From: Siphonodentalium dalli
Taxonomy: Eukaryota > Mollusca > Scaphopoda > Gadilida > Siphonodentaliidae
Length of the DNA: 64,000 bases
Direction of reading: 5' to 3'
Assembly: GCA_032622095.1 (NCBI GenBank)
Contig: CP136068.1
Location: 121,773,989 to 121,837,988 of the forward strand
Made by a program: the position numbers and the translations under genes. This document shows positions 11,976 through 62,299 of the stretch, piece after piece. Numbering within the stretch: position 1 is the first letter of the stretch; each line of letters starts with the position of its first letter. The notes beneath the pieces were generated by a model. That model had not been told where the DNA came from, did no database searches, and saw only the letters and a list, made by a program, of their open reading frames with translations.

Positions 11976-13320
11976 AATCAATCAATCAATCAATCTTCAT
12001 TGGAAAAATCCCATGTTAAAACATGTTTTCGTTATTCAATTACAGACAAATAAATACATTTTGAACATATATCTGGAGCATAACAAATATAATATACATG
12101 TAGCTGTATTTAGACATACAGAATTACTATCGGACAAGAATGAGCTCATATTAGTGTCCTTATCTACTTTCTTCTTTCATAATTGAAATGCACGTTTAAT
12201 AAAATCACAGAAAAAATCATGTTTTGTATCCCAATAGGTTGTTGGATTTAAAATAGATTCAGTTGATATTTCCTCCGCGCTATTAAATACAGATCCATAA
12301 TTTTCCCTCAAGCTAATGTATAGTGTACATTCTTGAATAAAATGTTCTTCATTTTCAACTTTTTTTTGGCAATTTGGACAAAACGCTCATCATAATCTTT
12401 AATTGGTTTATAACATTTTCCAACCTCGCTCATACCGGTAAGTGGATGTGCACTTATACAAATTTTTGTCAATGCAGAACGTTTATACAAGGGTAAGTTG
12501 AAAGTGAGATAATTTTGAAGTCTGAAACCTTCAACTAACTTAGAATAAAATCTGAGTTTACCAGAATTTGCTAATTTTATTTTTATCTAATTCATTATTG
12601 ACTTTATCTTTATAAAATGTTCTTACAACTTCGTCAAATTTATTTACAGTGAGATCCAATGATGGCAGTTTAATCTTGCATTGAAATTCTATTAATTTGA
12701 CTAGTCCATGCTATATTTCCACTTTCATGAGCTATTCTGTTGGATCGATACGCTGCTTTAAGTATTGTATATAAATTTGTAGTGAAGTTTTTATCTATAT
12801 CTTCAAGTCTTTTGTTAAATTTGTTCGTAACTTTTAACCCTTTACCCAACAAACCGGCCAAAACCGGCCAAATAAAGCTTCAACAGCCTAAAATATCTTC
12901 GGTCTGTCTCAATAGAACCATACAAATATGGATATCATTGGAACCGGCTCCTTGACCACATTGTGATAGTTACAGTTATGCCATGTGCCAATGCATTCTC
13001 TTATATATGCGAGTCGACCATAGGTCGCCTCGCATATATAAGAGAATGCATTGGCCTAAAAAAAAATTTTTTTACCATTTTTTCTTACATTCTTTAACAA
13101 TTTTATAATTTTTAATGTGTTAAGCCAATGCATTCTCTTATATATGCGAGGCGACCTATGGTCGACTCGCATATATAAGAGAATGCATTGGCACAGGACC
13201 CTTCTGTTGGGTAAAGGGTTAACATACATAGGAGAGCAACCAAGTTCCATGTGTATAGCCAAATTAGATGCTTTACCATGAACACCAATGAATAAATGAA
13301 TAATAGACCATTTCAATGTA
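11976..13320 (-). pseudogene. LINE 3' fragment (C-terminal part of a non-LTR retrotransposon ORF)
   Basis: On the minus strand, pieces in shifting frames read like the region after the reverse transcriptase in many metazoan LINEs. They include GVHGKASNLAIHMELGCSP near 13270, KLRFYSKLVEGFRLQNYL near 12530, LPLYKRSALTKICISAHPL near 12470, and a zinc-knuckle-like C-x2-C-x11-H-x4-C in FCPNCQKKVENEEHFIQEC near 12350. The 3' end carries a (TGAT)n tail at about 11976-11995, typical of some LINE clades. At least one frameshift is present. A C1 element (12833-13222) sits inside it at a TTAA, so the LINE is older. It lies in a host intron, sense to the Ig gene. Confidence 0.8.
12833..13222. mobile_element. 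C1-family MITE inserted in the LINE
   Basis: TTAA-CCCTTTACCCAACAAACC at left and GTTGGGTAAAGGG-TTAA at right. Two 66-bp palindromic modules face each other across an AT-rich spacer. The LINE reading frame resumes on both sides, so the site was TTAA in the LINE. Confidence 0.93.
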
Positions 13321-13368
13321 TACTTTTATAACAGAATGGAAGAATCCATTTAGTAAAGAAAAGGTTAA
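13285..13368. mobile_element. C4-family right-end fragment
   Basis: TGTATACTTTTATAACAGAATGG through GAATCCATTTAGTAAAG ends in GG-TTAA, as in other C4 right ends. Confidence 0.6.
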
Positions 13369-13395
13369 ACCAGAGCACTTATGTGTGGTACATAT

Positions 13396-13650
13396 CCCTT
13401 TCAATACAGGAGTTGCGCTGGTGCAGCATTAAAGATCATGCCCCAGTGCATTCTCTTATATATGCGAGTTACCCATGGGGAGCCTAGCATATATAAGAGA
13501 ATGCACTGGCTTACAAAGTTAAGGTAAATATTGTTAGGCCAATGTATTCTCTTATATATGCGAGGCTCCCTATGGGAGACTCACATATATAAGAGAATGC
13601 ATTGGCACAAGAGTTTTCGCAAAATTTCAAGAAGCTCCAGTCATGAAAGG
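13396..13650. mobile_element. C3-family MITE, decayed flanks
   Basis: CCCTTTCAATACAGGAGTTG at left and GCTCCAGTCATGAAAGG at right surround two palindromes. The TTAA flanks are not preserved on either side. Confidence 0.75.
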
Positions 13651-13910
13651 AATATGGCTGTGCCATGTGTAGCACGTTTGATCTTTTACAGGACCGGAAA
13701 GCACACATGTAATCAGGCTGAGTTAGAGCACAAGAAGCGGAAATCTTCTCGCCACTCACTTTGCATGTTTACCTCTAGTTATGTTCGGTTGCATTTTAAA
13801 GGCACGGTGTACAAGTGCAAAAGAATTCATATTGATTGGTGGGAAATGTTTAGATAATAAATATGGTCCTTTTGTTGAAATTATTATCTGAACATTTTCT
13901 AAGGGAACTA

Positions 13911-14030
13911 AAAGTAATGCCCTAAATAATCGACTCCTTAACCACAGCAGAATTATGGGTAACTTTTCAGGATTTAGTCGGAAATATGGCTTGCTGCCAT
14001 TCATCGGAAAGCTCTCAGTGAGAGAGGTTA
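13911..14030. mobile_element. B-family half element (one arm)
   Basis: One arm from AGTAATGCCCTAAATAATC to the centre GCTCTCAGTGAGAG; the other arm is absent. Confidence 0.8.
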
Positions 14031-14075
14031 ACCAGGGCTGAATTGCGTGTTATTAAATTGTCACGCCTTTGTCAT

Positions 14076-14512
14076 AAAGCCTGCAAATAGTGTGTCTGAC
14101 ATTTGCTGAATGAGGTCCTCAGAGGGTGAATTTAGTGATGATATCCAGCGCAGCGGGCTAGAATCACCAAATTCACCCTCTGGGGACCTCATTCTGCTTA
14201 GGCCTCATCTTCTCTGGAAAGTTTCTTTATTATCAAATTTCTATAGAAACTTCTTCACATAGATTTAGTTTCTCTATATCCCCAAATTGGCAGATGACAC
14301 AAATGTTGCATAATCGAGGTTCCCAATGGGTGTACATCACAATATTCACCATTTGGGAACTTCACTCTGAGTATATGTCTCCTATAGCAGATGAGGCCAT
14401 GCAGAATGAGGTCCCCGGAGGGTGAATTTGCTGATGCAGGCCCGCTATGCAGGATAGCATCACTAAATTCTCCCTCTGGGGACCTCATTCTGCAAAAGAA
14501 TTTGCAGGCTTG
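14076..14512. mobile_element. A-family MITE with exact 8-bp TSD
   Basis: TTTGTCAT (14068-14075 and 14513-14520) flanks AAGCCTGCAAATAGTGTG and GAATTTGCAGGCTTG. Two GCAGAATGAGG palindromes inside are separated by a unique centre. Confidence 0.95.
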
Positions 14513-14679
14513 TTTGTCATTTTCATCAGAGGTATTTTAGCCAGCAGACAATAACAAGGAATGAAACAACTCTTTTTTCTGGAGCATGAATAAAAATCAC
14601 TTTGGCACAGCAATGAGATAATTGTATTCCTGCTGTTCAATCGGCAAACAATTTTAGCACAATCTCAAAAGCCACTTAC

Positions 14680-14958
14680 ATGTTCTGGACAGCATAGCTC
14701 GGGAACTGATAATTGACCCTGAGGTTGTTCTGGCCATGCATTGATAACTGCCCTGATGAATTCGATGGCGGAATTTCTTCACCACTAAATCAGAACCTTT
14801 CACATGAAGCCCTTTAGATGTATTAAAGTTAATATAGTCATCGTTGAACATCCACCTGACGACAGCACTAGGAGGAGAAACTTGACAGCGAAGTCGCACT
14901 GAGGAGTGATGAGCTATCACTGCTGACTCAGGTTCAACGAGAAATTCTGGTATTTTAT
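14680..14958 (-). CDS. Ig-domain exon (first Ig domain), Sidekick-like receptor
   Basis: This exon of 279 bases is preceded by a pyrimidine tract and TTTTTCAG and followed by GTAAGTG. It encodes one whole Ig domain: an A-strand motif (IPEFLVEP), the B-strand cysteine in VRLRCQV, the core tryptophan in VVRWMFND and the F-strand cysteine in GSYQCMAR. It ends with SRT in phase 1. From memory of the family, the opening and the linker into the next exon (then LGDF) resemble the first Ig domain of Sidekick homophilic adhesion receptors at synapses and cell vertices. PTK7/off-track and other receptors with N-terminal Ig domains remain possible. The product would be extracellular. Confidence 0.85.
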
Positions 14959-15013
14959 CTGAAAAATAGAAATAGAATTTTGAACATCATAGGTCATCAC
15001 TTTTAGGTTTGCT

Positions 15014-15288
15014 TTAACCCTTTCAGTGCCAGGGGCCGATCTCATCGGCCCTAATTTACGGTCTGTAAAATCGGCCCTAAAAAAATAAAAAAAATTTTTA
15101 TTTTTTTTAGATTTTTAAAAAATTATTAAAATTGTAAAAAATAATAACAAATGATGAAAAATTGTTAGGCCAATGCATTCTCTTATATATGCGAGGCGAC
15201 CTATGGTCGACTCGCATATATAAGAAAATGCATTGGCACAGGGTATATGGGTTGATACAAAAATCGGACTTGGCACTGAAAGGGTTAA
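15014..15288. mobile_element. C2-family MITE
   Basis: TTAA-CCCTTTCAGTGCCAGG at left and TTGGCACTGAAAGGG-TTAA at right, one palindromic module inside. The right TTAA (15285-15288) is shared with the abutting C4 element. Confidence 0.92.
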
Positions 15289-15761
15289 TGCTTTCTATAC
15301 CGAATGGATTCATTGATTCTCCCACCCAGGTATAAAGTTATACATTGGAACGGTCTATTATTCATATGGAGGGTTGTTTTAGAAAAAATAAGCAGACAAC
15401 AGATAATGAAAGAGCAGAAAGATTCCAATTTATTGGACGAAAATGTTCAGATAATAAGTTCAACCTATGGTAATTTGTTGAACCTATTATCTGACCATTT
15501 CCTAAGAGATAACTACAGTAATGCCCTAATTAATCGACTCTTTAACCACAGCAGAATTATGGGTAACTTTTCAGGATTTAGTCGGAAATATGGCTTGCCA
15601 TTCATCAGAAAGCTTTCGGGGAGAGCTTTCCGATGAATGGCAACAGGCCATATTTCCGACTAAATCCTGAAAAGTTACCCATAATTCTGATGCGGTTAAG
15701 GAGTCGATTAATTAGGGCATAACTGTACTCATCAATGAGTATTTAGTATAGAAAGGATTAA
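15285..15761. mobile_element. C4-family element carrying a nested B element
   Basis: The left end is TTAA-TGCTTTCTATACCG and the right end is GTATTTAGTATAGAAAGGA-TTAA. A B hairpin (15514-15727) is inserted in its right part. Confidence 0.75.
15514..15727. mobile_element. B-family foldback MITE, nested
   Basis: TA-CAGTAATGCCCTAATTAATC and a decayed right end (ATAACTG-TA), with centre GCTTTCGGGGAGAGC. Confidence 0.92.
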
Positions 15762-15984
15762 ACAATATTTATGAACCCCAACCCTCCAATATTTAAGGTC
15801 TTGAAAACAACAGCAACAATATTTCCTATTTGAACTCTGTTTATTCTGATTAAAAATTTAAATTATATTTGTCATGATATTAAAGCATGAACAGAAGTCA
15901 AAATACCGTTATTTATCACCAACCAAACATATAAAATAGTTTAACCAAGTTGCAGGGATTGATGATGCATAATTGGAATAGGGC

Positions 15985-16424
15985 CAATAGTGTCTGTCAT
16001 TTGCAGAATGAGGTCCCCATAGGGTGAACTTAGTAATGCTATCCCGCACAGTGGGCTAGTATCACCAAATTTACCCTCTGGAGACCTCATTCTGCTTAGG
16101 CCCCATCTTCTGGGAAGTATCTATAGTCTCAAACTAACATTGTTTTAGTTATGTTTTCCCTTCTGGGAAGTTTCTATATCCCCTAATTTGCAGAAGATAA
16201 AATGTATAATCAAGGTGACTAACGGGTGAACATCACCAACTCATATATCAACTGGGGAACTTCAATCTGATCCTAGTTCTACCATAGCAGTTGAGGGCCT
16301 AAGCAGAATGAGGTTCCTAGAGGGTGAACTTGGTGATGCTAGCCAGCTGTGCAGGATAGCATCACCAAATTCACCCTCTAGCGACCTCATTCTGCAAATG
16401 ACAGACGCACTATTTGCAGGCTTG
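15985..16424. mobile_element. A-family MITE with exact 8-bp TSD
   Basis: AATAGGGC flanks both sides (15977-15984 and 16425-16432). The left TIR has lost about eight bases (CAA-TAGTG); the right end is CACTATTTGCAGGCTTG. Confidence 0.93.
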
Positions 16425-16431
16425 AATAGGG

Positions 16432-20018: not shown

Positions 20019-20019
<1 letters not shown>

Positions 20020-21087: not shown

Positions 21088-21520
21088 TTAACCCTTTACC
21101 CAACAACCCGGCCAAAAACGCCCAAATAAAGCTTCAACAGCCTAAAATATCTTCGGTCTGTCTCAATAACACCATACAAATATGGATATCATTGGAATCG
21201 GTTCATTGACCACATTGTGATGGTTACAGTTATGCCCTGTGCCAATGCATTCTCTTATATATGCGAGTCGACCATAGGTCGCCTCGCATATATAAGAGAA
21301 TGCATTGGCCTAACAAATTATTTTTTTAACACTTTTTACCATTTTTTCTTACATTCTTTAACAATTTTAGAATTTTTTCTTACATTTTTTAACAATTTTT
21401 ATAATATTTTTCTACATTCTTTGACAATTTTAGAATTTTTAATATGTGTTAAGCCAATGCATTCTCTTATATATAAGAGAATGCATTGGCACAGGGCCGT
21501 TCTGTTGGGTAAAGGGTTAA
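21088..21520. mobile_element. C1-family MITE
   Basis: TTAA-CCCTTTACCCAACAACCC and TTGGGTAAAGGG-TTAA. The second palindromic module has lost its central ~24 bp (CTTATATATAAGAG), giving a shortened but still perfect palindrome. Confidence 0.92.
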
Positions 21521-24083: not shown

Positions 24084-24149
24084 TATCTGGTAATTTCCCC
24101 CAGGGGCCTGTGATGCTTGCCAATTTATTACTATATTGTGAACTTTCAC

Positions 24150-24242
24150 GACTCCTTACGGGAGACTCGCATATATAAGAGAATGCACTGGCACAGGATC
24201 TTTAATGCTGCACAAGCGAGGCTCCTATCATGAAAGGGTTAA
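24150..24242. mobile_element. C3-family right-end fragment
   Basis: Half a palindrome (GGGAGACTCGCATATATAAG) followed by ATCATGAAAGGG-TTAA. Confidence 0.7.
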
Positions 24243-24261: not shown

Positions 24262-24651
24262 TTAACCCTTTACCCAACAAACCGGCCAAATAAAGCTGCA
24301 ACAGCCTAAATTATCTTGGGTCTGTCTCAATAAAACCATACAAATATGGATATCATTGGAACCGGCTCATTGATCACATTGTGATGGTTACAGTTATGCC
24401 CTGTGCCAATGCATTCTCTTATATATGCGAGTCGACCATAGGTCGCCTCGCATATATAAGAGAATGCATTGGCCTAAAAAAAATCTTTTTTTAACACTTT
24501 TTACCATTTTTTCTTACATTCTTTAACAATTTTATAAATTTTAATGTGTTAAGCCAATACATTCTCTTATATATGCGAGGCGACCTATGGTCGACTTGCA
24601 TATATAAGAGAATGCATTGGCACAGGGCCGTTCTGTTGGGTAAAGGGTTAA
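24262..24651. mobile_element. C1-family MITE
   Basis: TTAA-CCCTTTACCCAACA and TGTTGGGTAAAGGG-TTAA, with two palindromic modules. Confidence 0.93.
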
Positions 24652-26470: not shown

Positions 26471-26554
26471 AAATCCACACTTATTGGAATATGAACATGC
26501 TTTGCTATTGCTCAATGCCTTATTATATATAATGACCTAATGTGCCATTCACCT

Positions 26555-28946
26555 TTAACCCTTTACCCAACAAAACGGCCAAAACAAGCTTCAACAGCCT
26601 AAAATATCTTCGGTCTGTCTCAATAGAACCATACAAATATGGATATCATTGGAACCGGCTCATTGACCACATTGTGATGGTTATAGTTATACCCTGTGCC
26701 AATGCATTCTCTTATATATGCGAGTCGACCATAGGTCGCCTCGCATATATAAGAGAATGCATTGGCCTAAAAAAAAACTTTTTTAACACTTTTTACCATT
26801 TTTTCTTACATTCTTTAACAATTTTATAATTTTTAATGTGTTAAGCCAATGCATTCTCTTATATATGGGTCAAAATCTCAAAAGTGACAATTTTCACGTA
26901 ACACCCAGAATCATTGGTAGAAAATTAAAACAGTGCTTAGCTGTGGTTATATTTCTATTTTTATTGATAGCTGAGGTTACATTGAGATATTAAAATGCAC
27001 GCGTTTTATTATAATCATTATATTATTCTTGCTCCAGCCTTCCAAACATTGCAACACCTGTAAAAATGCCATGTAACAGATGGGATTTCCAAACTTTGAG
27101 TATAATTTCTTTAAAAACTACCAAATGTAATTGATATAATTTTCTCGAAAAAGTATACATAAAACTAGATAATTATTCTGAACGTGTAATTATATCTAGT
27201 ATGTAAAAGGTGTTTCTGAATTTCAGCTGTTTCTGTGTGTAACACTTTTTATGTCATTCCTGTTACCATATAACAAAAACTGCAGTTAGCAGTTATGAGG
27301 ATGCGGACATAGATGGCTATTTGAGCCTAAGTGATAGGACATGTGATGGCAATGTATGTGAAAGTAAACATGTATGCATTTAAGAAGCTGTTTTTCGATG
27401 CTGAAGCGATTAAGTTGTTACTTGTAGGGAGTATGTTAATTCGGTGTCATTCCTGTTACCACAATATAGCAAGAAAATATAATTAAATCAGTATCCGCTT
27501 TATTTTTTTAGTTTACTTTACAAAAGTTCTTTAAAACTAAAATAAAATGGATTTATCTCTCTGGTTATTTCAAACTGAAAAATCTCATCAAAAATAAAAA
27601 TGTCATTCCTGTTGCTGTCATCCCTGTTACTTGAACCAATAAAAAGTAACAGATATGACTAATAGTAACAGGAATGACAAACATATATCAGTTGATAGGA
27701 TTTCTAAAATAAGAACAGCAAACATTATCAAACCTGTATTTTCTGTTGTGGTGTGTACACAATTTACGTTGTCAGGTAGGATATCTGTGTTGGGTTGCAA
27801 TCTTGGGATTGGGTGTTGCCCGAGTTTTCGTACCTACATTATATCTTGCAGGTGGGTTAATATGGGGTAGGGAAGGATGGCATTGCGAACGGACCTCGTG
27901 ATATTGATGAGAGTTCATTCAACATTAATTTTCATAACTTCAGAACATTTAGCTGGACAAGTGGGCTACTAGTAGTATATTTGTCTAAGGTTGGATGGAT
28001 AGCCAAAGTTAAATATTTTCAAGGAACGGTTTGGGTGCTGTGCACATTACTTGGACCGAATAAGTGGGTACATTGGTTGGGTTAAATGGATAGGACACAA
28101 AATCTTGCTTGCACCTATCACCACTACATGTAGCATATTGTCATTGGAAACAAAATTTTCCCCATCAATCTTCATCAGCATATTTGTTATTCATGGTGTA
28201 ATGGAATTAATTCTGCTATTCTTGCTGTAGTGTAATTCTAGCTGCTTAGAATATATTAAACATACAGATACTGATATCTAGAGTTTCATTACTTTTACCG
28301 TTGTGTCATTCATGTTACCGGCAAGTCATTCCTGTTACCATGTACATATAGTTTTGCAAAAAATATCTACAAAAATAGTTCAAAAACAATACTGATCATG
28401 TTGTTTAGTCTGGACACAGCAAACATTCTAACATATAATTAATAAATGAGGTATCATTTTTTTAGAATCTACAGGAGCAAGCAAGCAATATTTTTTGGGG
28501 TTTTACATGGAATGAGCATTAGAATGATGTAAAAGTTATTTGTATGTTGGGATATTCCATTGTATGCTTTATATTATGTTTGGGTAATTTTGTTTATGCA
28601 GTGGTCATAATATGGGCTTCAATAGTATGTATTTGATAGTTAACTGGATCTATTTTTGTTAGTAACAGGAATGACAAGCAGAAAAGCACCAAAGAGAAAC
28701 AATGCGTTGCTATGGCAACGGGATCTTGAATCCAGCTCTGCTGAGACACGTAGGATGTCCCCTGTGGACTCACCTTCCATATTAAATGAATAAACACTCT
28801 CACTATGAATGTTCTAAATTTCACAAAATGGAACCCCAAAATGTGCACTTTTGAGATTTTGACCCATATGCAAGGCGACCTATGGTCGACTCGCATATAT
28901 AAGAGAATGCATTGGCACAGGGCGCTTCTGTTGGGTAAAGGGTTAA
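26555..28946. mobile_element. C1-family MITE split by element P
   Basis: TTAA-CCCTTTACCCAACAAAACG at left and TTGGGTAAAGGG-TTAA at right. The second palindromic module is interrupted after CTTATATAT by the ~2-kb element P. The right TTAA (28943-28946) is shared with the following C2 element. Confidence 0.92.
26877..28865. mobile_element. Element P: TIR transposon with 4-bp TSD, superfamily unassigned
   Basis: The ends are GGGTCAAAATCTCAAAAGTG and GTGCACTTTTGAGATTTTGACCC. Comparison with intact palindromes of the host C1 family shows that CTTATATATGC became CTTATATAT-element-ATATGC, a duplication of ATAT. The motif GTCATTCCTGTTACC or close variants occurs about eight times inside, in both orientations (27254, 27446, 27601, 27616, 27665 rc, 28304, 28326, 28662 rc). 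No transposase was recognised; the frames inside are short. A 4-bp TSD is known for Sola and Chapaev groups, but the ends do not let me choose. Confidence 0.8.
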
Positions 28947-29136
28947 CCCTTTCAGTGCCAAGTCCGTTTTTTGTATCAACCCATATTTCCTTGATCATTT
29001 TTCAAATTTATTTATAATAAAAATGTGATACATGCTCTTTCCATCAATGTATCACATTATTATAATCAATAAATTGAAAAATGATCAAGGAAATATGGGT
29101 TGGTACAAAAATCTGACTTGGCACTGAAAGGGTTAA
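28943..29136. mobile_element. C2-family foldback MITE
   Basis: TTAA-CCCTTTCAGTGCCAAGTCC and ACTTGGCACTGAAAGGG-TTAA. The arms continue through ATTTCCTTGATCATTTTTCA and its complement. This variant lacks the 66-bp palindrome. Confidence 0.92.
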
Positions 29137-33682: not shown

Positions 33683-36600
33683 ATGAAAGTGTCAATGACA
33701 CTGTAGCTCAACTTGGAAAGGGAATAATTTAATGTATTACAGTCAATGGAGCCATTAGGAATGTGGAAAGTTGAATATCTAATACATGTTTACAGACATG
33801 AAGAGAAAAGTAAAATCCAAGATGGCTGCTGGCGGCCATGTTTTCGGCCGAATGACCCCAAAATGAGTCGTTCCCATCTACATGTCATCGTTAACATCCA
33901 TGACAAATTTTATGACGATCAGACTAAATGTACGACCTGTAGCCCGCGCTAAAGAATTTAGTCATACAAAGAGTAAAATCCAAGATGGCTGCTGGCGGCC
34001 ATTTTTTGGGCCGAATGACCCCAAAATTACTCGTTCCCATCTACATGTCAATATTATCATCCATGACAAATTTCATGATCATCAGACGAACAGTACGACC
34101 TGTGGCCCGTGCTAATGGATTAAATTTTTAAATCCAAGATGGCCGCTGGCGGCCATGTTTTTTGTCCGAATGACCCCAAAATGACTTGTTCCCATCTACA
34201 TTCCAATTTCAACAACAATGACAAATTTTATGATGATCAGACTAAAGGTATGACCTGTAGCCCATGCTAAAGGATTTAGTCATACAAAGAGTAAAATCCA
34301 AGATGGCTGCTGGCGGCCATGTTTTTCGGCCGAATGACCTCAAAATGACTCGTTCCCATCTACATGTCATTATTAACATTCATGATAAATTTCATGATGA
34401 TCAGACTAAAGGTACAACCTGTAGCCCGTGCTAAAGGATTTAGTCATACAAAGAGTAAAATCCAAGATGGCTGCTGGCGTCCAGGTTTTTTGGCCGAATG
34501 ACCCCAAAATTACTCGTTCCCATCTACATGTCATTGTTAACATCCATGACACATTTTATGATGATCAGACTAAAGGTACGACCTGCAGCCCGTGCTAAAG
34601 AATTTAGTCATACAAAGAGTAAAATCCAAGATGGCTGCTGGCGGCCATGTTTTTGGGCCGAATGACCCCAAAATTACTCGTTCCCATCTACATGTCAATA
34701 TTATCATCCATGACAAATTTCATGATGATCAGAAGAACAGTACGACCTGTGGCCCGTGCTAATGGATTAAATTTTTAAACCCAATATGGCCGCTGGCGGC
34801 CATGTTTTTTGTCCGAATGACCCCAAAATGACTCGTTCCCATCTACATTCCAATTTCAACAACCATGACAAATTTTATGATGATCAGACTAAAGGTACGA
34901 CCTGTAGCCCGTGCTAAAGGATTTAGTCATACAAAGAGTAAAATCCAAGATGGCTGCTGGCGGCCATGTTTTTCGGCCGAATGACCTCAAAATGACTCGT
35001 TCCCATCTACATGTCATTATTAACATTCATGATAAATTTTATGATGATCAGAATAAAAGTAGGACCTGTAGCCCGTGCTAAAGGATTTAGTCATACAAAG
35101 AGTAAAATCCAAGATGGCTGCTGGCGACCATGTTTTTTAGCCGAATGACCCCAAAATTACTCGTTCCCATCTACATGTCATTGTTAATATCCATGACAAA
35201 TTTTATGATGATCAGACTAAAGGTACGACCTGCAGCCCGTGCTAAAGAATTTAGTCATACAAAGAGTAAAATCGAAGATGGCTGCTGGCGGCCATGTTTA
35301 TTGGCCGAATGACCCCAAAATTACTCGTTCCCATCTACATGTCAATATTATCATCCATGAAAAATTTCATGGTGATCAGACGAACAGTACGACCTGTGGC
35401 CCGTGCTAATGGATTAAATTTTGAAATCCAAGATGGCTGCTGGCGGCCATGTTTTTTGTCCGAATGACCCCAAAATGACTCGTTCCCATCTACATTCCAA
35501 TTTCAACAGCCATGACAAATTTTATGATGATCAGACTAAAGGTACGACCTGTAGCCCGTGCTAAAGGATTTAGTCATACAAAGAGTAAAATCCAAGATGG
35601 CTGCTGGCGGCCATGTTTTTTGGCCGAATGACCATAAAACGACTCGTTCCCATCTACATGTCATTATTAACATTCTTGACAAATTTTATGATGATCAGAC
35701 TAAAAGTAGGACCTGTAGCCCGTGCTAAAGGATTTAGTCATACAAAGAGTAAAATCCAAGATGGCTGCTGGCGACCATGTTTTTTAGCCAAATGACCCCA
35801 AAATTACTCGTTCCCATCTACATGTCATTGTTAATATCCATGACAAATTTTATGATGATCCGACTAAAGGTACGACCTGCAGCCCGTGCTAAAGAATTTA
35901 GTCATACAAAGAGTAAAATCGAAGATGGCTGCTGGCGGCCATGTTTATTGGCCGAATGACCCCAAAATTACTCGTTGCCATCTACATGTCAATATTATCA
36001 TCCATGACAAATTTCATGGTGATCAGACGAACAGTACGACCTGTGGCCCGTGCTAATGGATTAAATTTTGAAATCCAAGATGGCTGCTGGCGGCCATGTT
36101 TTTTGTCCGAATGACCCCAAAATGACTCGTTCCCATCTGCATTCCAATTTCAACAGCCATGACAAATTTTATGATGATCAGACTAAAGGTACGACCTGTA
36201 GCCCGTGCTAAAGGATTTAGTCATACAAAGAGTAAAATCCAGGATGGCTGCTGGCGGCCATGTTTTTTGGCCGAATGACCCCAAAATGACTCGTTCCCAT
36301 CTACATGTCATTATTAACATTCTTGACAAAATTTATGATGATCAGACTAAAAGTACGACCTGTAGCCCGTGCTAAAGAATTTAGTCATACAAAGAGTAAA
36401 ATCCAAGATGGCTGCTGGCGGCCATGTTTTTGGGCCGAATGACCCCAAAATTACTCGTTCCCATCTACATGTCAATATTAACATCCATGACAAATTTCAT
36501 GAAGATCAGACAAACAGTACGGCCTTTAGCCCGTGCTAATGGATTGAATTTTGAAATCCAATATGGCCACTGGCGGCCATGTTTTTTTTCCGAATGACCC

Positions 36601-36801
36601 CAAAATTAATTATTCTGGTCTAAATGTTGATGTCAACAGCTATGACAAATTTCATAATGATCCGTCGAAAGGTACGACCTGTAGCCTGCATTGTTGACGC
36701 CTTACGTACACACGTACACACGTACACACGTACACACGGACGACGGACGACAAAGCCATGGCAATAGCTCAAACTTTACAAAGTAAAGTTGAGCTAAAAA
36801 T
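33683..36801 (+). mobile_element. Helentron-type non-autonomous element with tandem core (copy 1)
   Basis: The left end has TAGCTCAACTTGG, matched inversely near the right end by AAGTTGAGCTA. The right end holds a (CACACGTA)n microsatellite at 36708-36738, ATGGCAATAGCTCA, and a hairpin AACTTTAC-AAA-GTAAAGTT just before GAGCTAAAAAT. Between them lie about 18 copies of a ~163-bp unit. Sub-terminal inverted repeats, 3' microsatellite, 3' hairpin and core tandem repeats are the established features of Helentron-associated elements, including the 'pearl' elements of bivalves. No Rep/helicase coding sequence is present. Confidence 0.8.
33800..36700 (+). repeat. ~163-bp tandem core repeats in a four-unit higher order
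   Basis: The landmark AAGATGGCTGCTGGCGGCCA recurs every 155-167 bp from 33820 to 36560. Variant landmarks such as GGCCCGTGCTAATGG recur only at 34103, 34751, 35398 and 36043, and CTACATTCCAATTTCAAC at about 34196, 34844, 35490 and 36137. Four monomers (~647 bp) are therefore the unit of the latest amplification. Short open frames across units are by-products. Confidence 0.9.
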
Positions 36802-36978: not shown

Positions 36979-38211
36979 TATGTGACCCGCCATATCAAAT
37001 CCAGTCGTAAGTCGGGATTTTTTTACCCTGTGCCAATGCATTCTCTTATATATGCGAGTCGACCATAGGTCGCCTCGCATATATAAGAGAATGCATTGGC
37101 CTAACAATTTTTTATAATTTTAATAATTTTTTCTTTAACAATTTTATAATTTCACCCATACAGAGCCCCAGACAAACATGAGCAGACGACACTCTTCTAT
37201 ATGCTTCTATATATGTGTGGGGCTCCCTGCAGGGTAATGGATGTTTTTTTATTTTATGTCCTAATGAAAGTGTCAATGACACTGTAGCTCAACTTGGAAA
37301 GGGAATAATTTAATGTGTTACTGTCGATGGAGTGATTAGGAATGTGGAAAGTTGAATGTCTAACACTAGTTTATCAACATGAAGAGATATATATATACAT
37401 GTATATAAAAGTAAAATCTAAAATGGTTGCTGGCGGCTATGTTTTCCAACAATTCAAAAACATTTGATAGCTTTAGTCATGCAAAGAGTAGAATCCAAGA
37501 TGGCCACTGGCAGCCATGTTTTAATGCCGAATAACCCCAAAATGACTCGTTTCCATCTACATGTCAATTTCAACAGCCATGACAAATATCATGATGATCC
37601 GACCAAAGGTACGACCTGTAGCCCGTGTCAAAGGATTTAGTCATGCAAAGAGTAAAATCTAAGATGGCTGCCGGCGGCCATGTTTTTTGGCCGAATGACC
37701 CCAAAATGACTCATTCCCATCTACATGTCAATATTAACATCCATGACAAATTTCATGACAATAAAACGAACAGTACGGCCTGTAGCCCGTGCTAATGGAT
37801 TGAATTTTGAAATCCAAGATGGCCGCTGGCAGCCATGTTTTTTTTCCAAATGACCCCAAAATGACTCGTTCCCATCTACATGTCAATGTCAACATCCATG
37901 ACAAATTTCATAATAATCGGACCAAAGGTACAAACTGTAGCCCGTGCTAAAGGAAATTGTTGACGAATCACGCACGCACACACACACACACGCACGACGG
38001 ATACCAAGCCATGGCAATAGCTCAAACTTTACAAAGTAAAGTTGAGCTAAAAATTGTAAGAAACATTTATTTAAAAATAATGATAAAAAATTGTTAGGCC
38101 AATGCATTCTCTTATATATGCGAGGCGACCTATGGCATATATAAGAGAATGCATTGGCACAGGGTAAAAAATTCCCGACTTACGACTGGATTTGATATGG
38201 CGGGTCACATA
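36979..38211. mobile_element. D-family element (TA TSD) split by a Helentron-type copy
   Basis: TA-TGTGACCCGCCATATCAAATC and GATTTGATATGGCGGGTCACA-TA. It carries the 66-bp palindromic module near each end (the right one shortened in its centre). Its interior is interrupted at TTATGTCCTA by 37264-38053. The uninterrupted paralogue is at 61849-62299. Confidence 0.9.
37264..38053 (+). mobile_element. Helentron-type non-autonomous element (copy 2, nested)
   Basis: Same left end (ATGAAAGTGTCAATGACACTG) and right hairpin end as 33683-36801. It has only three to four core units (AAGATGGC at about 37496, 37660 and 37813), and the microsatellite is (CA)n. The unoccupied paralogue shows no obvious target duplication. 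Confidence 0.82.
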
Positions 38212-41194: not shown

Positions 41195-41430
41195 TTGACC
41201 CTTTCATCATGGAAGCTGTGCTGGTGCAGCATTAAGATCCTGTGCCAGTGCATTATTTGATATATGCGAGTATCTGATAGGGAGCCTCGCATATATAAGA
41301 GATAACCACTGGTTTACAAGGTCAAGGTAAATATTGTAAAGCCAATGCATTCTCTTATATATAAGAGAATGCATTAATTGGCACATGGTTTTCGCAAAAT
41401 TGCAGGAAGCTCCAGTAATGGAAGGGTTAA
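41195..41430. mobile_element. C3-family MITE
   Basis: TTGA-CCCTTTCATCATGG at left (TTAA mutated) and CCAGTAATGGAAGGG-TTAA at right. The second palindrome has lost its centre. It abuts the next C3 at a shared TTAA. Confidence 0.8.
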
Positions 41431-41666
41431 CTCATGACTGGAGCTTCCTGAATTTTGGGGAGAACCCTGTGCCAATGCGTTCTCTTATATATGCAAGTCG
41501 CCCATAGGGTGCCTCACATATATAAGAGAATGCATTGGCCTAACATTATTTACCTTGATCTTGTAAGCCAGTGCATTCTCTTATATATATGAGGCTCCCT
41601 ATGGGAGACTCGCATATATAAGAGTATGCAGTGCTGCACCAAGAAGCTCCAGTCATGGAAAGGTTA
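41427..41666. mobile_element. C3-family MITE
   Basis: TTAA-CTCATGACTGGAGCTTCC and GCTCCAGTCATGGAAAGG-TTAA, with two palindromic modules. Confidence 0.85.
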
Positions 41667-42244
41667 AAATGGCATATTATGATTGCACATACAATGACAC
41701 AAGCTTCAATGACATGCTTACAGTGTGCACACATGTTCAAAAACAAGGATGCTTATGAAATCAGAATGGTTTATTGACAGAAGTACAGTGTTGTATGTAA
41801 GTTCAAATTGGTAGCATTACATTAGGGACCTGCGAATTGGATATTTTGATCGAATCGAATTTCGAATCGAATTCACAAAATCGAATCGAATATAGAATCG
41901 AATATCGAATCGAATCATATATGTGTGTTGCTTCTCAATTAGGCATGCTTTGTTAACGATTAGACGATTTGTGAAACGTTCTATGAACTACATGCATGAA
42001 GTTCCATCACAACTTATGTGGTGATGAACCGTCGTTTGAGATACTATTAACTTCGATTTATAATTGTCGAGAAAAAAAAACAAATTAAAACGTCCATGCT
42101 GCCATCACAGCAATTAATATATTACCACTAAACGGATTATCGGAACTAAAATCACGCAAAATTTATATAGTCTGCATGTACATGCAAAATTGCAATTCAG
42201 CATTCGGAAACACTCGTTGTTATAAACTTGAAGACGCAACAACA

Positions 42245-42912
42245 GTCGCAGGGTAGATGATTCCATAGATGGGTAGTTGTCCCAGATGCTTGCGTTTTAT
42301 ACACCATGTTGCATTCATCACACGTGTAAGTCCCTGTACTGCCTGAAGCTTTATCATGTTTAAAGGTACTCAATCCGAACAGAGGGTCCCCATCTCAACA
42401 GATTCCAACAACAACAATCCGATCAGAGGGTCCTATATTACTATTTCTTTGGCTTTGGGGGTAAAACATATTTGATTCGAGTCGAGGAACCCATCAAACA
42501 AAGCTCATAGTTATTAGATATTGATTTTTGAAATTTGTTATTTACTCGAGATGAGTACTAATAATTTTTTTAATTTGTTATTTACTCGAGATGAGTACTA
42601 ATAATTGCCTTCAACTGCCGTAATCTGCTCGGGATGTGTACACCAAAATCTATTCAAACAGACAAGGATGGATAACTCTAAAATCAAGTGGTAATAATAA
42701 CGCAATTTTGACTGAGTTCTGGGCCAGAAAGTATTCCCGATAATGAAAAATAATAGATTTCTAAAATCGATATCTAACAAATCTGAGCTTTGATGGGTGA
42801 CTTCCTCGACTCGAATCAAATATTTTTGACCTCCGAAGCCATTGAAATAGTAATTGAGAGGAGTTTTATCGGATTGAGTACCTTTAAAATAAACATGAAT
42901 GACTGTCGACAT
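42245..42912 (-). pseudogene. BED zinc-finger segment of a hAT transposase, interrupted
   Basis: An ATG at 42912 opens MSTVIHVYFK, which stops at the insertion of element E (42364-42883). The frame resumes on the other side with TYTCDECNMVYK and ends TTTHLWNHL. C-x2-C followed ~20 residues later by H-x4-H is the BED DNA-binding finger typical of hAT transposases. Removing E with one TTAA keeps the frame, so E landed in coding sequence. Nothing like the RNase-H catalytic core or the C-terminal dimerisation region follows. Confidence 0.8.
42364..42883. mobile_element. E-family element (TTAA TSD), Kolobok- or piggyBac-like
   Basis: TTAA-AGGTACTCAATCCGA and TCGGATTGAGTACCT-TTAA are exact inverted ends. 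A ~35-bp direct repeat (TTTGTTATTTACTCGAGATG) occurs at about 42535 and 42575. TTAA targets with AG ends are known for Kolobok. A second copy is at 49562-50250. Confidence 0.85.
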
Positions 42913-43537: not shown

Positions 43538-43892
43538 TACAGTAATGCCCTAAGTAATTGACTCCTTAACCCTTTCAGTGCCAAGTACGATTTTTGTATC
43601 AACCTATATTTCCTTGATCATTTTTCAAATTTATTGATTATAATAATGTGATACATTGATGGAAAGAGCTCTTAGGTTGATACAAAAATTTGACTTGGCA
43701 CTGAAAGGGTTAACCACAGCAGAATTATGGGTAACGTTTCAGGATTTAGTTGGAAATATGGCTTGTTGCCATTCATCGGAAAGCTCTCGGGGTTTCGATG
43801 AATGGCAACAAGCCATATTTCCGACTAAATCCTGAAAAGTTACCCATAATTCTGCTGTGGTTAAGGAGTCGATTACGTAGGGCATTACTGTA
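43538..43892. mobile_element. B-family foldback MITE split by a C2 element
   Basis: TA-CAGTAATGCCCTAAGTAAT and GGGCATTACTG-TA. The arm sequence GACTCC-TTAA-CCACAGCAG is interrupted exactly at its TTAA. Confidence 0.93.
43566..43713. mobile_element. C2-family MITE nested in a B element
   Basis: TTAA-CCCTTTCAGTGCCAAG and TTGGCACTGAAAGGG-TTAA. The surrounding B family provides the empty site, proving a TTAA duplication with nothing else added. Confidence 0.95.
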
Positions 43893-48139: not shown

Positions 48140-48540
48140 TTAACCCTTTACCCAACAAACCGGCCAAAACCGGCCAAATAAAGCTTCAACAGCCTAAAAT
48201 ATCTTCGGTCTGTCTCAATAGAACCATACAAATATGGATATCATTGGAACCGGCTCCTTGACCACATTGTGATAGTTACAGTTATGCCCTGTGCCAATGC
48301 ATTCTCTTATATATGCGAGTCGACCATAGGTCGCCTCGCATATATAAGAGAATGCATTGGCCTAAAAATAAATAAAAATTTAACACTTTTTACCATTTTT
48401 TCTTACATTCTTTAACAATTTTATAATTTTTAATGTGTTAAGCCAATGCATTCTCTTATATATGCGAGGCGACCTATGGTCGACTCGCATATATAAGAGA
48501 ATGCATTGGCACAGGGCCCTTCTGTTGGGTAAAGGGTTAA
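48140..48540. mobile_element. C1-family MITE
   Basis: TTAA-CCCTTTACCCAACAAACC and TTGGGTAAAGGG-TTAA, with two complete palindromic modules. Confidence 0.95.
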
Positions 48541-52046: not shown

Positions 52047-52286
52047 TTAATCCGTTGAGTGCCAGGGGCCGATATTATCGGCCCTAAACCTACACAATAA
52101 GTCTGTTAAAGAATATAATAAAATATATTAAAATTGTAAAAAATTGTAAAAAAAAAAAAATGTTAGGCCAATGCATTCTCTTATATATGCGAGGCGACCT
52201 ATGGTCGACTCGCATATATAAGAGAATGCATTGGCACAGGGTATATGGGTTGATACAAAAATCGGACCTGGCACTCAAAGGGTTAA
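52047..52286. mobile_element. C2-family MITE
   Basis: TTAA-TCCGTTGAGTGCCAGGGG and CTGGCACTCAAAGGG-TTAA, one palindromic module. Confidence 0.92.
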
Positions 52287-57405: not shown

Positions 57406-57815
57406 CAAGCCTGCAAATAGTGTCTGTAATTTGCAGAATGAGGTCCCCAAACGGTGAATTTAGTGAAGCTATCCCGCACAACGGGCTAGAATCACCAAAT
57501 TCACCTTCTGGGGACCATTCTGCTTAGGCCTTGTGTTTTGGTAAGTATCTATAGTCTCAAATTAACATTGTTTTTAGTTACTTTTTCCCTTCTGGGAAGT
57601 TTCTAATCCATTAATTTTAAAATGAATAATCGAGGTGAATAATGAGTGAACATCACCCACTTCAACTGGGGAACTTCAATCTAAACCTAGCTTCCTAGCA
57701 GAATGAGGTTCCCAGAGGGTGAATTTGGTGATGCCAGCCATGCGGGATAGTGTCACTAAATTCACCATATGGGGACCTCATTCTGCAAATGACAGACACA
57801 ATATTTGCAGGTTTG
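57406..57815. mobile_element. A-family MITE with exact 8-bp TSD
   Basis: ACGTTCTA flanks both sides (57398-57405 and 57816-57823). The ends are CAAGCCTGCAAATAGTG and ATATTTGCAGGTTTG. Confidence 0.95.
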
Positions 57816-57861
57816 ACGTTCTATCTCAGGCTTTCTTTGACCAATCTGTGTGAAACATGGT

Positions 57862-57987
57862 GTAAGGTCTCCTTGACCACATCAGAATTATGGGAAACTT
57901 TTCAGGATTTGGTCGGAAATATGGCTTGTTGCCATTCACCATAATGCTGCTGTGGTTAAGGAGTCGATTATTTAGGGCATTACTGTA
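57862..57987. mobile_element. B-family half element with shortened second arm
   Basis: CAGAATTATGGGAAACTTTT through TTGCCATTCACC is joined directly to the last ~40 bp of the other arm, ending GGGCATTACTG-TA. Confidence 0.78.
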
Positions 57988-58017
57988 CTCATCAATGATG
58001 CTCTAGTAAAGAAATGA

Positions 58018-58844
58018 TTAAAGGGACTCAAGGCCTTCGAAGTGGGTTCATGGAAAATAACATAAAAGTCTGTAAAACAACTATCATTAACAAGTACAGT
58101 AATGCTCTAATTAATCGACTCCTTAAACACAGCAGAATTATGGGTAACTTTTCAGGATTTTGACGGAAATATGGCTTGTTGCCATTCATCGGATGAATGG
58201 CAACATATAATTTCATCGGAAAGCTCTCCCCGAGAGCTTTCCGATGAATGGCAACAAGCCATATTTCCGACTAAATCCTGAAAAGTTACCCATAATTTTG
58301 CGGTGTTTAAGGAGTCGATTAATTAGAGCATTACTGTACATGGAAAAATAGATTCGCTTCAGTTCACTTTGTTCTTGTTTTAATTATTAATATATCTCCA
58401 TTTAATAATGAGATTTTCCATATTGAAACCATTGTTATGTAAACATTAGTGTTCAGGTAAAATTACTAATAAAACTCCAATTTGTCCAATAAGATACCAA
58501 AGTATAATCAAAATTTGATGGTCAACATTGGAAAAGGTTAAAGCATTGTCAAATATTCTGAAAACCATATTCAGACTAAAATATTTGAACTTACATGATT
58601 AGCGATGTTTATTGACAAATCACTGTGATGGTTTTGTTTACATAAAAATGGTTTTAACACGTGAAATTGCGTTATTGAAGAACTATCAAATTGATAGTTC
58701 TTCAATAACGCAATTTCACGTATCAATAATGAATATAAGAACGAAGTTTATCTATTTCTCCATGTTCTTCTTAGTGGTGATGTTTTTACAGACTTTTATA
58801 TATTTTACACATTCACAGCCTGGGAGTACTTTGGGTCCCTTTAA
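58018..58844. mobile_element. F-family element (copy 2) with nested B element and a perfect palindrome
   Basis: TTAA-AGGGACTCAAGGCCTTCG and TACTTTGGGTCCCT-TTAA. Interior AACCATTGTTATGTAAAC matches F copy 1. A 63-bp near-perfect palindrome (58659-58721) lies in its right half. Confidence 0.8.
58095..58338. mobile_element. B-family foldback MITE nested in F
   Basis: TA-CAGTAATGCTCTAATTAATC and GAGCATTACTG-TA, with a ~25-bp insertion near the centre. Confidence 0.92.
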
Positions 58845-58908
58845 GTGCCATTTTATCAGGGGGACAGAAACAATTAAGGGCAACAACTTCAGAAGGACAC
58901 TTTGTAAA

Positions 58909-59349
58909 CAAGCCTGCAAATATTGTGTCTGTCATTTGCTGAATGAGGTTCCCAGAGGGTGAATTTAATAGTGATGCTATCCTGCACAGCGGGCTAGCAT
59001 CACCAAATTCAACCTCTTGGAACCTCATTTTGCTTAGGCCTCAACTGCTTTGGGAGACCTTGTCTCAGATTGAAGTTCCCTAGTTGAAGTTGGTGATGCT
59101 CACCCATTAGTCACCTCGATTATGCATTTTATCTTCTGCAAATTAGGGGATATAGAAACTTCCCAGAAGGCAGAAAGAGAAAAAGTACCTAAAACATTAT
59201 GTTAATTTGAGACTATAGATACTTCTCATAAGATGAGGTCCCAATAGGGTGAATTTGGTGATGCTAACCCACTGTGCGGGATAGCATCACTAAATTCACC
59301 CTCTGAGGACCTCATTCTGCAAATGACAGACACACTATTTGCAGACTTG
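58909..59349. mobile_element. A-family MITE, 8-bp TSD
   Basis: TTTGTAAA and TTTGTAAC flank CAAGCCTGCAAATATTGTG and CTATTTGCAGACTTG. Confidence 0.92.
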
Positions 59350-59416
59350 TTTGTAACTTATGCATTTGTACAAATGTCAGCCTGTGTTGAGGGCAAGGTT
59401 GCAAGTTCACAAGGTG

Positions 59417-59657
59417 TTAACCCTTTGAGTGCCTGGTCAATTTTTGTATCAACCCATATACCCTGTGCCAATGCATTCTCTTATATATGCGAGTCGACCA
59501 TAGGTCGCCTCGCATATATAAGAGAATGCATTGGCTTAAATTTTTTTTTTTTTTTTTTGGATTTTACAATTTTAATAATTTATTCTTATATTCTTTAACA
59601 GACTTATTTTGCAGGTTTAGGGCCGATGAGATCGACCCCTGGCACTCAAAGGGTTAA
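59417..59657. mobile_element. C2-family MITE
   Basis: TTAA-CCCTTTGAGTGCCTGG and CTGGCACTCAAAGGG-TTAA, in the opposite orientation to most C2 copies; one palindromic module. Confidence 0.93.
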
Positions 59658-59847
59658 TCCGCATCGACACCAAATCTGATTCAAATATTTATGAATATCC
59701 AATTTATCCCCATCATTGTCACAATGTTGCGATTTTAACACATGATGATAATGAAACAGTTTTGATAGATGCATCTATGATATTTGTTGCAACACACATA
59801 TTGTGTTAAAATACAAATGATGGTTCATTATATATGCAACCTAAAAT

Positions 59848-60101
59848 CAAGACTTCAAATAGGGTGTCTGTCATTTGCAGAATGAGGTCCCCAGAGGGTG
59901 AATTTAGTGATGCTACCCCGCATAGCGGGCTAGCATCACCAAATTCACCCTCTGGGGACCTCATTCTGCTTACACCTCAGCAGAATGAGGTTCCCAGAGG
60001 GTGAATTTGGTGATGCTAGCCCGCTATGCGGGGTAGCATCACTAAATTCACCCTCTGGGGACCTCATTCTGCAAATGACAGACACCCTATTTCAAGGCTT
60101 G
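59848..60101. mobile_element. A-family MITE with exact 8-bp TSD
   Basis: CCTAAAAT flanks both sides (59840-59847 and 60102-60109). The two inner hairpins are nearly perfect, so this is one of the youngest A copies. Confidence 0.95.
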
Positions 60102-60194
60102 CCTAAAATTCGCGAGAGATGTGATGTCATAAAGGCATACTGGTAATATTTTATGATCAATCATTTAATTGCTGGTTAATTGCATTATCGGATG

Positions 60195-60370
60195 GGTATC
60201 AACGTAATTCTTCGATTGATCTATGAAAGTATAGATGCATCAGTAGACGAACAACATATTGTATCATTCTGCATTGCGGAATTACACTTTGCAGAATTAT
60301 AATATAGTTATTAATATAGTTGTTCGTCTACTAATACATCTACACACTCATAGATCAATCGAAAAATGAA
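60195..60370. mobile_element. Unclassified foldback
   Basis: TTCGATTGATCTATGAAAGT and GTAGACGAACAAC at left are mirrored by GTTGTTCGTCTAC and TCATAGATCAATCGAA at right. The TSD was not resolved. Confidence 0.65.
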
Positions 60371-61035
60371 GTTGATGGCTTATCATTACAACGAAAATAC
60401 TTTATTTTCAACTATCTACTATTAATCCATCCCTGAAAATAAATTGACAAAACAGGATTTTCCGTTGGACAATCTCCAAATCTGGTTGATGGGGCGAAAA
60501 TAAATTGGCAACGACCGAGCGAAACTTTCAGAAAATAAGCACACCTGAACATAAATTTTCTTCAATAAACTATTCATGATCAAGAAAATACTTCTCGTTT
60601 GCCTACCATTTACGTTTAAATACGCGAAACGTCTTAATAATTATCAACACACAGAGACTCAAATTTGTAGCGATGGTCCCTGACTGGTTAGTGATCTCCA
60701 GTGATATTGATAACATCCGATGTAAACAAATGCCATGGTCAGATATAATGTTCTCATGACAAATGATATACATCATTATCTATGGTATGAAGTAGACATT
60801 TTTTTAATATGGTTGTAATCGGGTAACACATTTTATTTATTTCCAATAAAATTATCCATGTTCATTTGACTTCATCAGCCCATTGATCATTGTGTTTCAT
60901 TATTTTTCGCACTAACTATACATTGTCATGGACGTTTTTCTGAAAATTGGGCAAATAAAAATGTGGCACAAATTTTGAGCATTCAGTCGAGTGTTGCAAA
61001 AACATGAACATGGCTGAAATGCAATGACAGAAGTA
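60371..61035. other. No feature recognised
   Basis: Unique AT-rich DNA. Confidence 0.45.
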
Positions 61036-61138
61036 TATGGTAATGCCCTAAATAATCGACTCCTTAACCGACTAAATCCTGAAAAATTACCCATAATTTT
61101 GCTGTGGTTAAGGAGTCGACTAATTAGAGCATTACTGC
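61036..61138. mobile_element. B-family MITE, internal deletion derivative
   Basis: GGTAATGCCCTAAATAATCG is joined through CTTAACCGACTAAATCCTGA to AGAGCATTACTG; both end motifs are kept. Confidence 0.8.
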
Positions 61139-61848
61139 ATTGTACAATCCGTAAGGAACAGAAACATGCAATATAATCATCAACTACTTTGTCAAGCGTT
61201 TCTAGCATTGAGTTTTCAAGATGTTTTTTCACAACGAACGATTCCACTGGAATACTTGTTCAACGCTTTTGTGTCATCCGTGATGTCATGGGGGGCTACG
61301 GTTAGACCAGCCCATATTTTCTTGGAGTATAACTATGCAAGGTGACTCGTCCACTGCAATATCTATACACTGGTAGATCAGGTCGTGTACTAGCCTCTCA
61401 ACCAATCAAATGCACATATTTCAATGAAATCAAAAGTAGTTATAATTATATCTGTAAACATATTTATGTCTATGTGCCTTATTTTCTATTTTCGCAAACT
61501 ACACGATGTGGATGTAAAGGTTTAAAGTGATGATGTAGGAATGCAGAATTAACTTATTATTTTTATATCCAAATTGTCAGCACGCTTTTCATTCTTATAT
61601 ATTAATTATATATATGCAGCGACTTTCATTGGAGGAATCATTGCCGCTTGTTTATTGGCAAAAATTAATCCCGAATTAAGGAATAAATGTTTACGTTGCG
61701 CATAGTTCAGACGTTATGTTTTCTGAAATGCTAAGACCAGTGCAGTTGGAATTTTCAAAAATATTTGTCGAATGATACATTCTTTCAGAGGGCAAAGTGC
61801 CCTGGTATTCATTAATCAGTTTGATTCACTGAAATGAGTACATAATAT
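61139..61848. other. No feature recognised
   Basis: No coding or repeat signal that I can support. Confidence 0.45.
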
Positions 61849-62299
61849 GTGACCCGCCATATCAAATCCAGTCGGGATTTTTTTACCCTGTGCCAATGCA
61901 TTCTCTTATATATGCGAGTCGACCATAGGTCGCCTCGCATATATAAGAGAATGCATTGGCCTAACAATTTTTTACAATTTTAATAATTTTTTCTTGTATT
62001 CTTTAACAATTTTATAATTTCACCCATACAGAGCCCCAGACAAACATGAGCAGACAAAACTCTTCTATATGCTTCTATATATGTGTGGGGCTCCCTGCAG
62101 GGTAATGGATGTTTTTTATTTTATGTCCTAAAAATTTTAAGAAACATTTATTTAAAAAAAATGATAAAATATTGTTAGGCCAATGCATTCTCTTATATAT
62201 GCGAGGCGACCTATGGTCGACTCGCATATATAAGAGAATGCATTGGCACAGGGTAAAAAAAATCCCGACTTACAACTGGATTTGATATGGCGGGTCACA
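61849..62299. mobile_element. D-family element (TA TSD), uninterrupted
   Basis: TA-TGTGACCCGCCATATCAAATC and GATTTGATATGGCGGGTCACA-TA, with one complete palindromic module near each end and GGGGCTCCCTGCAGGGTAAT between. Confidence 0.92.

Follow-up and report, generated by a model that had tools for sequence, protein, structure and literature searches.

The palindrome and the elements that contain it

The window analyzed here is a 64-kb stretch (64,000 nucleotides) of the genome of the scaphopod mollusc Siphonodentalium dalli (contig CP136068.1, positions 121,773,989 to 121,837,988 of the forward strand), which probably lies within introns of an animal cell-adhesion-type gene. It contains four families of elements, designated C1, C2, C3, and D, which are putative non-autonomous DNA transposons, namely miniature inverted-repeat transposable elements (MITEs). 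Their listed copies constitute about 12% of the window (Table 1). All four share a long palindrome, although their ends and their targets, TTAA for C1, C2, and C3, and TA for D, are not the same.

In order to assess the occurrence of the palindrome, the arm CCAATGCATTCTCTTATATA was searched for in the window. With at most three mismatches allowed, 70 matches were found, compared to 0.02 expected from dinucleotide shuffles, which confirms the claim of an earlier, sequence-only reading that the palindrome is common to C1, C2, C3, and D. It comprises 67 bp, or 69 bp with the extra paired base on each side, and its arms of 34 bp contain two mismatches. Two palindromes per element occur in C1, C3, and D, and one in C2; the previous description as about 66 bp, once or twice, is corrected to 69 paired bp and to these copy numbers. 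A start at 12833, as given before, is too far to the right, because the copies run from 1358 to 62246.

Thirty-seven palindromes, whose unit coordinates were placed by hand, were scored: nine in C1, six in C2 (one being the copy made by a tandem duplication), four in D, and 18 in C3. The scoring omitted the right palindrome of the C1 element at 26555, which is split, the left palindrome of the C3 element at 9990, most of which is deleted, and two single arms with five mismatches at 26512 and 40392, which were regarded as chance. All 37 units are located inside an element of one of the four families.

Each unit has a direction. Read from the nearer tip inward, it consists of CCCTGTG, CCAATGCATTCTCTTATATATGCGAGTCGACCATAGGTCGCCTCGCATATATAAGAGAATGCATTGG, and CCTAACAA; the flanks CCCTGTG and CCTAACAA served to assign its strand. 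On the outer side, CCCTGTG is exact in 17 of the 19 units of C1, C2, and D and variable in C3; on the inner side, CCTAACAA shows variants. In C1, C2, and D, an AT-rich tail has to be added to the proposed embedding in CCCTGTG...CCTAACAA. The palindrome is slightly asymmetric: a T·C mismatch at columns 27/41 has the same orientation in 13 of 13 aligned full-length units (10 of the 18 from C3, three of the 19 from C1, C2, and D) and in all those 17 of the 19 C1, C2, and D units that retain the center. Central deletions of 31 bp and 8 bp occur in two of the C1, C2, and D units. The units form inverted pairs in C1 (about 70-145 bp apart), in C3 (about 30 bp apart), and in D; C2 has one unit close to one end. 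With TTAA or TA counted and one representative taken per end type, the distance from the tip to CCCTGTG is 147 and 24 bases in C1, 45 in C2, 42 and 45 in C3, and 47 in D, one end of which is shorter owing to a deletion.

The same 31-bp central deletion is found at the same columns in a C1 unit (21454-21489) and in a C3 unit (41342-41381). Either a recurrent deletion between TATATA repeats or an exchange between the families could have produced it.

Table 1. Members of the four palindrome-containing families and of the related module-less C2' group (positions refer to the window)
Family	Position	Strand	Properties
C1	12834-13222	+	TTAA at both ends; palindromes 12988-13054 and 13125-13191
C1	21088-21520	+	palindromes 21242-21308 and 21454-21489 (31-bp central deletion)
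C1	24262-24651	+	palindromes 24406-24472 and 24554-24620
C1	26555-28946	+	right palindrome interrupted by an element of ~2.0 kb with terminal inverted repeats, about 26867-28866
C1	48140-48540	+	palindromes 48294-48360 and 48443-48509; its left 147 bp match those of the 12834 copy exactly
C2	2137-2385	-	one palindrome, 2267-2333; second copy at 5687-5935 by tandem duplication
C2	15014-15288	-	palindrome-proximal end matches module-less C2' with 98% identity (44 bp)
C2	49988-50231	-	flanks have an uninterrupted homologue at 42802-42888
C2	52047-52286	-	palindrome 52168-52234
C2	59417-59657	+	palindrome 59468-59534
C2'	28943-29136		module-less hairpin MITE; palindrome-proximal end of C2 on both tips
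C2'	43566-43713		module-less; within TTAA of a mariner-like MITE
C2'	63914-64000	+	module-less; copy ends at the window edge
D	36979-38211	+	TA flanks; palindromes 37033-37099 and 38099-38157 (8-bp deletion)
D	61846-62301	+	TA flanks; palindromes 61893-61959 and 62180-62246
C3	1309-1561	+	diverged palindrome version; TTAA at both ends; uninterrupted flank homologue 2709-2816
C3	9234-9487	+	two palindromes
C3	9990-10192	+	right side truncated; left palindrome mostly deleted
C3	13389-13655	-	two palindromes
C3 fragment	24112-24242	+	right palindrome
C3 pair	41195-41668		abutting, one TTAA in common: 41195-41430 minus, 41427-41668 plus
C3	46992-47236	+	two palindromes
C3	48674-48939	-	two palindromes
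C3	56584-56790	+	right side truncated
C3 deletion derivative	11061-11149	-	both ends present, palindrome absent

A common block with a sharp outer boundary

C1, C2, and D have a block in common, which consists of CCCTGTG, the palindrome, CCTAACA, and an AT-rich tail, always in the same orientation. The differences from one consensus amount to 2 of 572 bases in C1, 1 of 335 in C2, and 0 of 260 in D, that is 3 of 1,167 in total (the duplicate copy being excluded), whereas the C3 units differ at 168 of 1,121 bases and represent a version that is 15% diverged. Hence it is appropriate to speak of the "same" palindrome, as the sequence-only reading did, for C1, C2, and D, but not for C3. The AT-rich tails belong to the block as well: in seven of nine pairs, none of 500 dinucleotide shuffles matched the score, and in the other two, six did so. 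All six pairs of the D tail with C2 (four copies) and with C1 (two copies) gave 0 of 500; the three pairs of C2 with C1 gave 0, 6, and 6. The tails of D and C2 are 95% identical over 39 bp, and the likeness of the D tail to C3 is weak (94 and 17 of 500 shuffles).

On the outer side, the similarity between C1, C2, and D halts abruptly at CCCTGTG; immediately beyond it, only 1-7 of 15 positions are identical. For the comparison of the outer ends, six end types were combined to 15 pairs, the first 10 nt were removed, and 500 shuffles were generated. The left and the right end of C3 were the only pair clearly alike (1 of 500 shuffles). The values for the two ends of C1 (29 of 500) and for the right end of C2 with D (34 of 500) are nominal and such as 15 trials may yield. 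These sharp boundaries support the earlier proposal that one cassette resides in elements that differ in their ends and targets. The accompanying statement that the terminal inverted repeats (TIRs) differ and that the elements are unrelated has to be qualified for C1, C2, and C3: their tips all read TTAACCCTTT or are one mismatch away from it, in agreement with the terminal motif CC[C/T]T given in PMC2872659. The two D copies, both with TA flanks, have the tip TGTGACCC and no TTAA target duplication.

One ancestral element whose TIRs changed gradually, the outcome that would have spoken against a shared cassette, could explain why TTAACCCTTT is common to C1, C2, and C3 and why the two C3 ends are still alike. 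Likeness does not fade at CCCTGTG, however, but breaks off in one step: C1, C2, and D agree in the palindrome and in CCCTGTG and are unrelated a few bases outward. Because of this step, and as D deviates in both tip and target, gradual change is disfavored and appears scarcely credible to us.

Insertion sites and module-less elements

TTAA is present on both ends in five of five C1, six of six C2 (one being the duplicate copy), and three of 10 C3 elements; in the remaining seven C3 copies, one or both ends are mutated or truncated. Uninterrupted homologues of the flanks exist in the window for three of 17 joined flank pairs, those of C2' at 43566, C3 at 1309, and C2 at 49988; for the other 14 sites, none was found within the window. 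The C3 site has a homologue with 83% identity over 108 columns and a TTAA; that of C2 is 79% identical over 87 bp, and its site reads TTAT. For C2', there are many uninterrupted homologues with TTAA, which are other copies of the mariner-like MITE. These homologues indicate that the TTAA families were inserted at TTAA.

The module-less C2' elements are informative with respect to the origin of C2. The first 44 bp of the copy at 28943 are 86-98% identical to six C2 copies, the best being that at 15014. At the switch point, CCCATAT is followed by ACCCTGTG in C2 versus TTCCTTGATC in C2', and no continuation of the C2' interior is seen on the far side of C2; consequently, C2 is not C2' plus an insertion. 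As module-less C2' carries its outer end, C2 looks chimeric as judged from the sequences. Moreover, the evidence for C2' insertion implies that an element with the end of C2 could move without the module.

These findings bear on the possibility that the palindrome is a small mobile hairpin element, which inserted into the ancestor of each family. Such an origin would explain why six different outer sequences stop at nearly one base. However, none of the 37 units in this 64-kb window, which is a small sample, stands alone outside the four families, and no target duplication was seen at the palindrome edges. The search for lone copies with a target duplication, which the sequence-only reading had recommended, thus turned out negative, and its idea of a nested mobile hairpin is disfavored by the absence of standalone units. 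In addition, a simple insertion into C2' cannot yield C2, and the adjoining AT-rich tail is common, too. We consider this origin very unlikely.

Three further observations concern the surroundings of these elements. A tandem duplication at about 2137-8840, with a spacing of ~3.55 kb, copied a whole C2 element (2137, 5687) plus its surroundings. The mariner-like MITE (TACAGTAATGCCC...) is abundant, with about 20 sites, and has the form of a long hairpin; one copy contains the C2' element 43566-43713. Another group with TTAACCCTTT-like ends (CTATACTAAATACTC... and similar) lacks the palindrome and is located at 15761, 25773, 47492, 62307, and 62946; a hairpin with TGTTCAGATAATAAGTTCAA lies nearby at two places, 15441 and 25817.

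A proposed origin: one core with replaced ends

We favor the interpretation, with a probability of about 0.58, that the four families are composites: a single core would have acquired different transposon ends, and transposases reading these ends would then have spread the products. C1, C2, and D would be chimeric: a half-module made up of CCCTGTG, the 67-bp palindrome, CCTAACA, and the AT-rich tail (an estimated 120-140 bp) would have been joined to several unrelated ends, with one unit per element in C2 and two inverted units in both C1 and D. The transposases would recognize the ends only, and the palindrome itself would not be self-moving. The TTAACCCTTT ends of C1, C2, and C3 fit the piggyBac pattern given in PMC2872659; a piggyBac-type enzyme may serve these families and another enzyme the TA-targeting D. 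For the joining step, we infer template switching or abortive gap repair between elements, with the palindromes as likely sites of breakage or stalling.

Several observations speak against this interpretation. All six end types meet CCCTGTG within one base, and a random replacement of ends would give such a common boundary only if it was inherited or favored. Four of the six end types have a similar spacing between tip and module (42, 45, 45, 47), hinting at a constraint, and the low divergence of the palindrome, described below, is left unexplained by end replacement alone. Neither a donor nor an autonomous partner nor intermediates, C2' excepted, were seen in the window, and the inclusion of D rests on two copies. 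A mixed account is possible, according to which the module was gained by exchange and retained as useful.

Low divergence and symmetry of the palindrome

Within C1 and C2 taken together, the palindrome contains 3 substitutions in 907 bases and the non-AT flanks 32 in 1,163; the palindrome is thus about eight times less substituted than the flanks around it (Fisher p = 7e-6, the cells not being independent). For C2 alone, the difference is borderline (p = 0.047). A visual count of events gave 4 in 201 palindrome columns versus 22 in 169 flank columns (p = 4.6e-5). The sample consisted of five copies of C1 and five independent ones of C2, which are related by descent; due to this shared descent and the small number of copies, these p-values are to be taken as guides. 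The AT-rich interiors (22/390 in C1, 50/613 in C2), which are more variable and poorly alignable, were excluded from the flank totals; near position 20-40, a short, ambiguous repeat enters the C1 left-flank count. The low divergence could result from constraint in the source elements or from homogenization between palindromes.

In the 13 aligned units, changes on both sides of the palindrome were found at six of 31 pairs (15 cells). Among 500 symmetry shuffles, none reached this number of cells, 32 reached the number of pairs, and 142 the number of pair types. The symmetric pairs 23/45 and 24/44 read as CpG transitions, the other four of the six do not; at columns 4/64, 29/39, and 30/38, each change may go back to one inherited event. 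These data lend modest support to a retention of symmetry at the DNA or RNA level. Self-correction of the hairpin was rejected as the cause of symmetry, since the T·C mismatch at columns 27/41 is invariant in all 13 aligned units. Gene conversion as an automatic consequence of nearby inverted palindromes is doubtful as well, because the left and right versions in C3 retain a distinct base pair at columns 4/64 despite a separation of only ~30 bp.

By analogy to known transposons, the palindrome could be a selected subterminal site, to which the C-terminal domain of a transposase or a host factor binds; the tip would then be the cleavage signal, and the intervening TIR would be free to vary. Palindromic sequences are also located inside the tips of the TTAA transposons piggyBac and piggyBat: according to PMC11707139, the piggyBac ends have identical 19-bp palindromes, which are bound by two cysteine-rich domains of a known transposase, and that of piggyBat is shorter. 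A selected site would be in agreement with the fixed orientation, a tip-to-module distance that is alike in four of six end types, the boundary common to all, the low divergence, and the changes on both sides (with the shuffle results given above), and the authors of PMC2872659 made the same proposal for the conserved interior of their coral MITEs. On the other hand, the length of 67-69 bp far exceeds that of the piggyBac site; C2' with the end of C2 moved lacking the palindrome, C2 bears it at a single end, and D carries the identical sequence despite its other target. Of the six symmetric pairs, moreover, two coincide with CpG sites, and three may trace back to single events. Taken together, we regard a selected site as unlikely, but worth considering.

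A related idea views the palindrome as a portable cis-acting module, which would boost the mobility of any host MITE via a host factor or cruciform DNA instead of a single transposase and would for this reason have been recruited, and kept nearly unchanged, across transposase superfamilies (TTAA, TA). We deem this clearly unlikely.

Finally, the palindrome could have been kept for hairpin-derived small RNAs acting on related transposons or genes. The RNA fold of one unit has an energy of -55.1 kcal/mol (z -14.9) and corresponds in length and stability to the 60-90 nt hairpins of microRNA precursors, and the changes on both sides, four of which are not CpG transitions, are compatible with this function. 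However, folding is expected of any such palindrome, a search of the window with Rfam (gathering thresholds) gave nothing, and the fixed orientation relative to the tips would be left unexplained. This function is, in our view, highly improbable.

Comparison to known systems

TTAA MITE families that have different TIRs and a shared interior are already known. The CMITEs of Acropora corals (PMC2872659) are TTAA-flanked MITEs with CCCTTT-type tips, one family of which is connected to a piggyBac-like element; an interior that is more conserved than the TIRs recurs in several families whose TIRs differ, and its origin was left unexplained by the authors. The same relation is found here in C1, C2, and D. 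In contrast to the elements described here, CMITEs are ~100 bp long, their 75-bp interior is of other sequence, and their target is TTAA; 24 bases taken from the published 60-mer had no match with at most three mismatches in the window. The present case is distinguished by its long palindromic core, by the TA-target sharer D, and by the presence of C2', which has an end of C2 but no module.

Two more systems resemble the composite structure. In Galileo of Drosophila mojavensis, TIRs of one subfamily are combined with the interior of another, which is ascribed to exchange (PMC3573991); there, the exchange occurred within one element with TIRs of hundreds of bases, whereas here it would have linked element types with different targets. 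In the FoSTeST model of Pack-TIRs (PMC8277862), template switching places foreign sequence between transposon ends, and some of the products then spread; the sequence captured there is not derived from transposable elements, whereas the core studied here is common to several MITE families. A literature search, which subscription papers were largely outside of, gave no report of one palindrome common to TTAA and TA MITEs. What is unusual here is the palindromic core and its sharing across TTAA and TA elements, the latter represented by two D copies only.

How new MITE families with shared interiors and different ends originate is a question left by the coral study (PMC2872659). A single window contains composites, the module-less C2', sites free of the insertion, and an element that shares the module but uses a different target; thus, end replacement and a selected module can be tested directly in one genome.

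Searches beyond the window and other features

In viral contigs, a 17-mer from the palindrome edge had seven matches, a 16-mer from the palindrome core 11, a 17-mer from the D TIR two, and the C2 TIR none; the neighboring bases never continued the element. Two scans of genome contigs gave zero and three matches, the latter without continuation of the element, and one C1 element had no match in phage records. This absence is weakly informative, because the collections consist of viruses, phages, plasmids, and prokaryotes.

No transposase was detected by Pfam among the 20 scanned of 47 stop-to-stop open reading frames (ORFs) of at least 90 aa. The same scan identified one immunoglobulin exon; hits to zf-CCCH_AtC3H23 and MINT_RAM7 were weak and below the curated cut-off. 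A search for tRNAs gave nothing. The element of ~2.0 kb at 26867-28866 has short TIRs (GGGTCAAAATCTCAAAAGTG), is inserted within TATATAT of the C1 palindrome with a target duplication of ATAT or TA, and has no ORF of more than 75 aa fully inside. A 164-bp satellite array with a 164/319-bp higher-order pattern extends from 33809 to 36686, and three more units lie inside D at 37472-37954. The immunoglobulin exon corresponds to an exon-like ORF of the minus strand (14654-14986; Pfam Ig_3, E = 9.5e-9), which has AG/GT at its edges and contactin-2 as the nearest solved chain.

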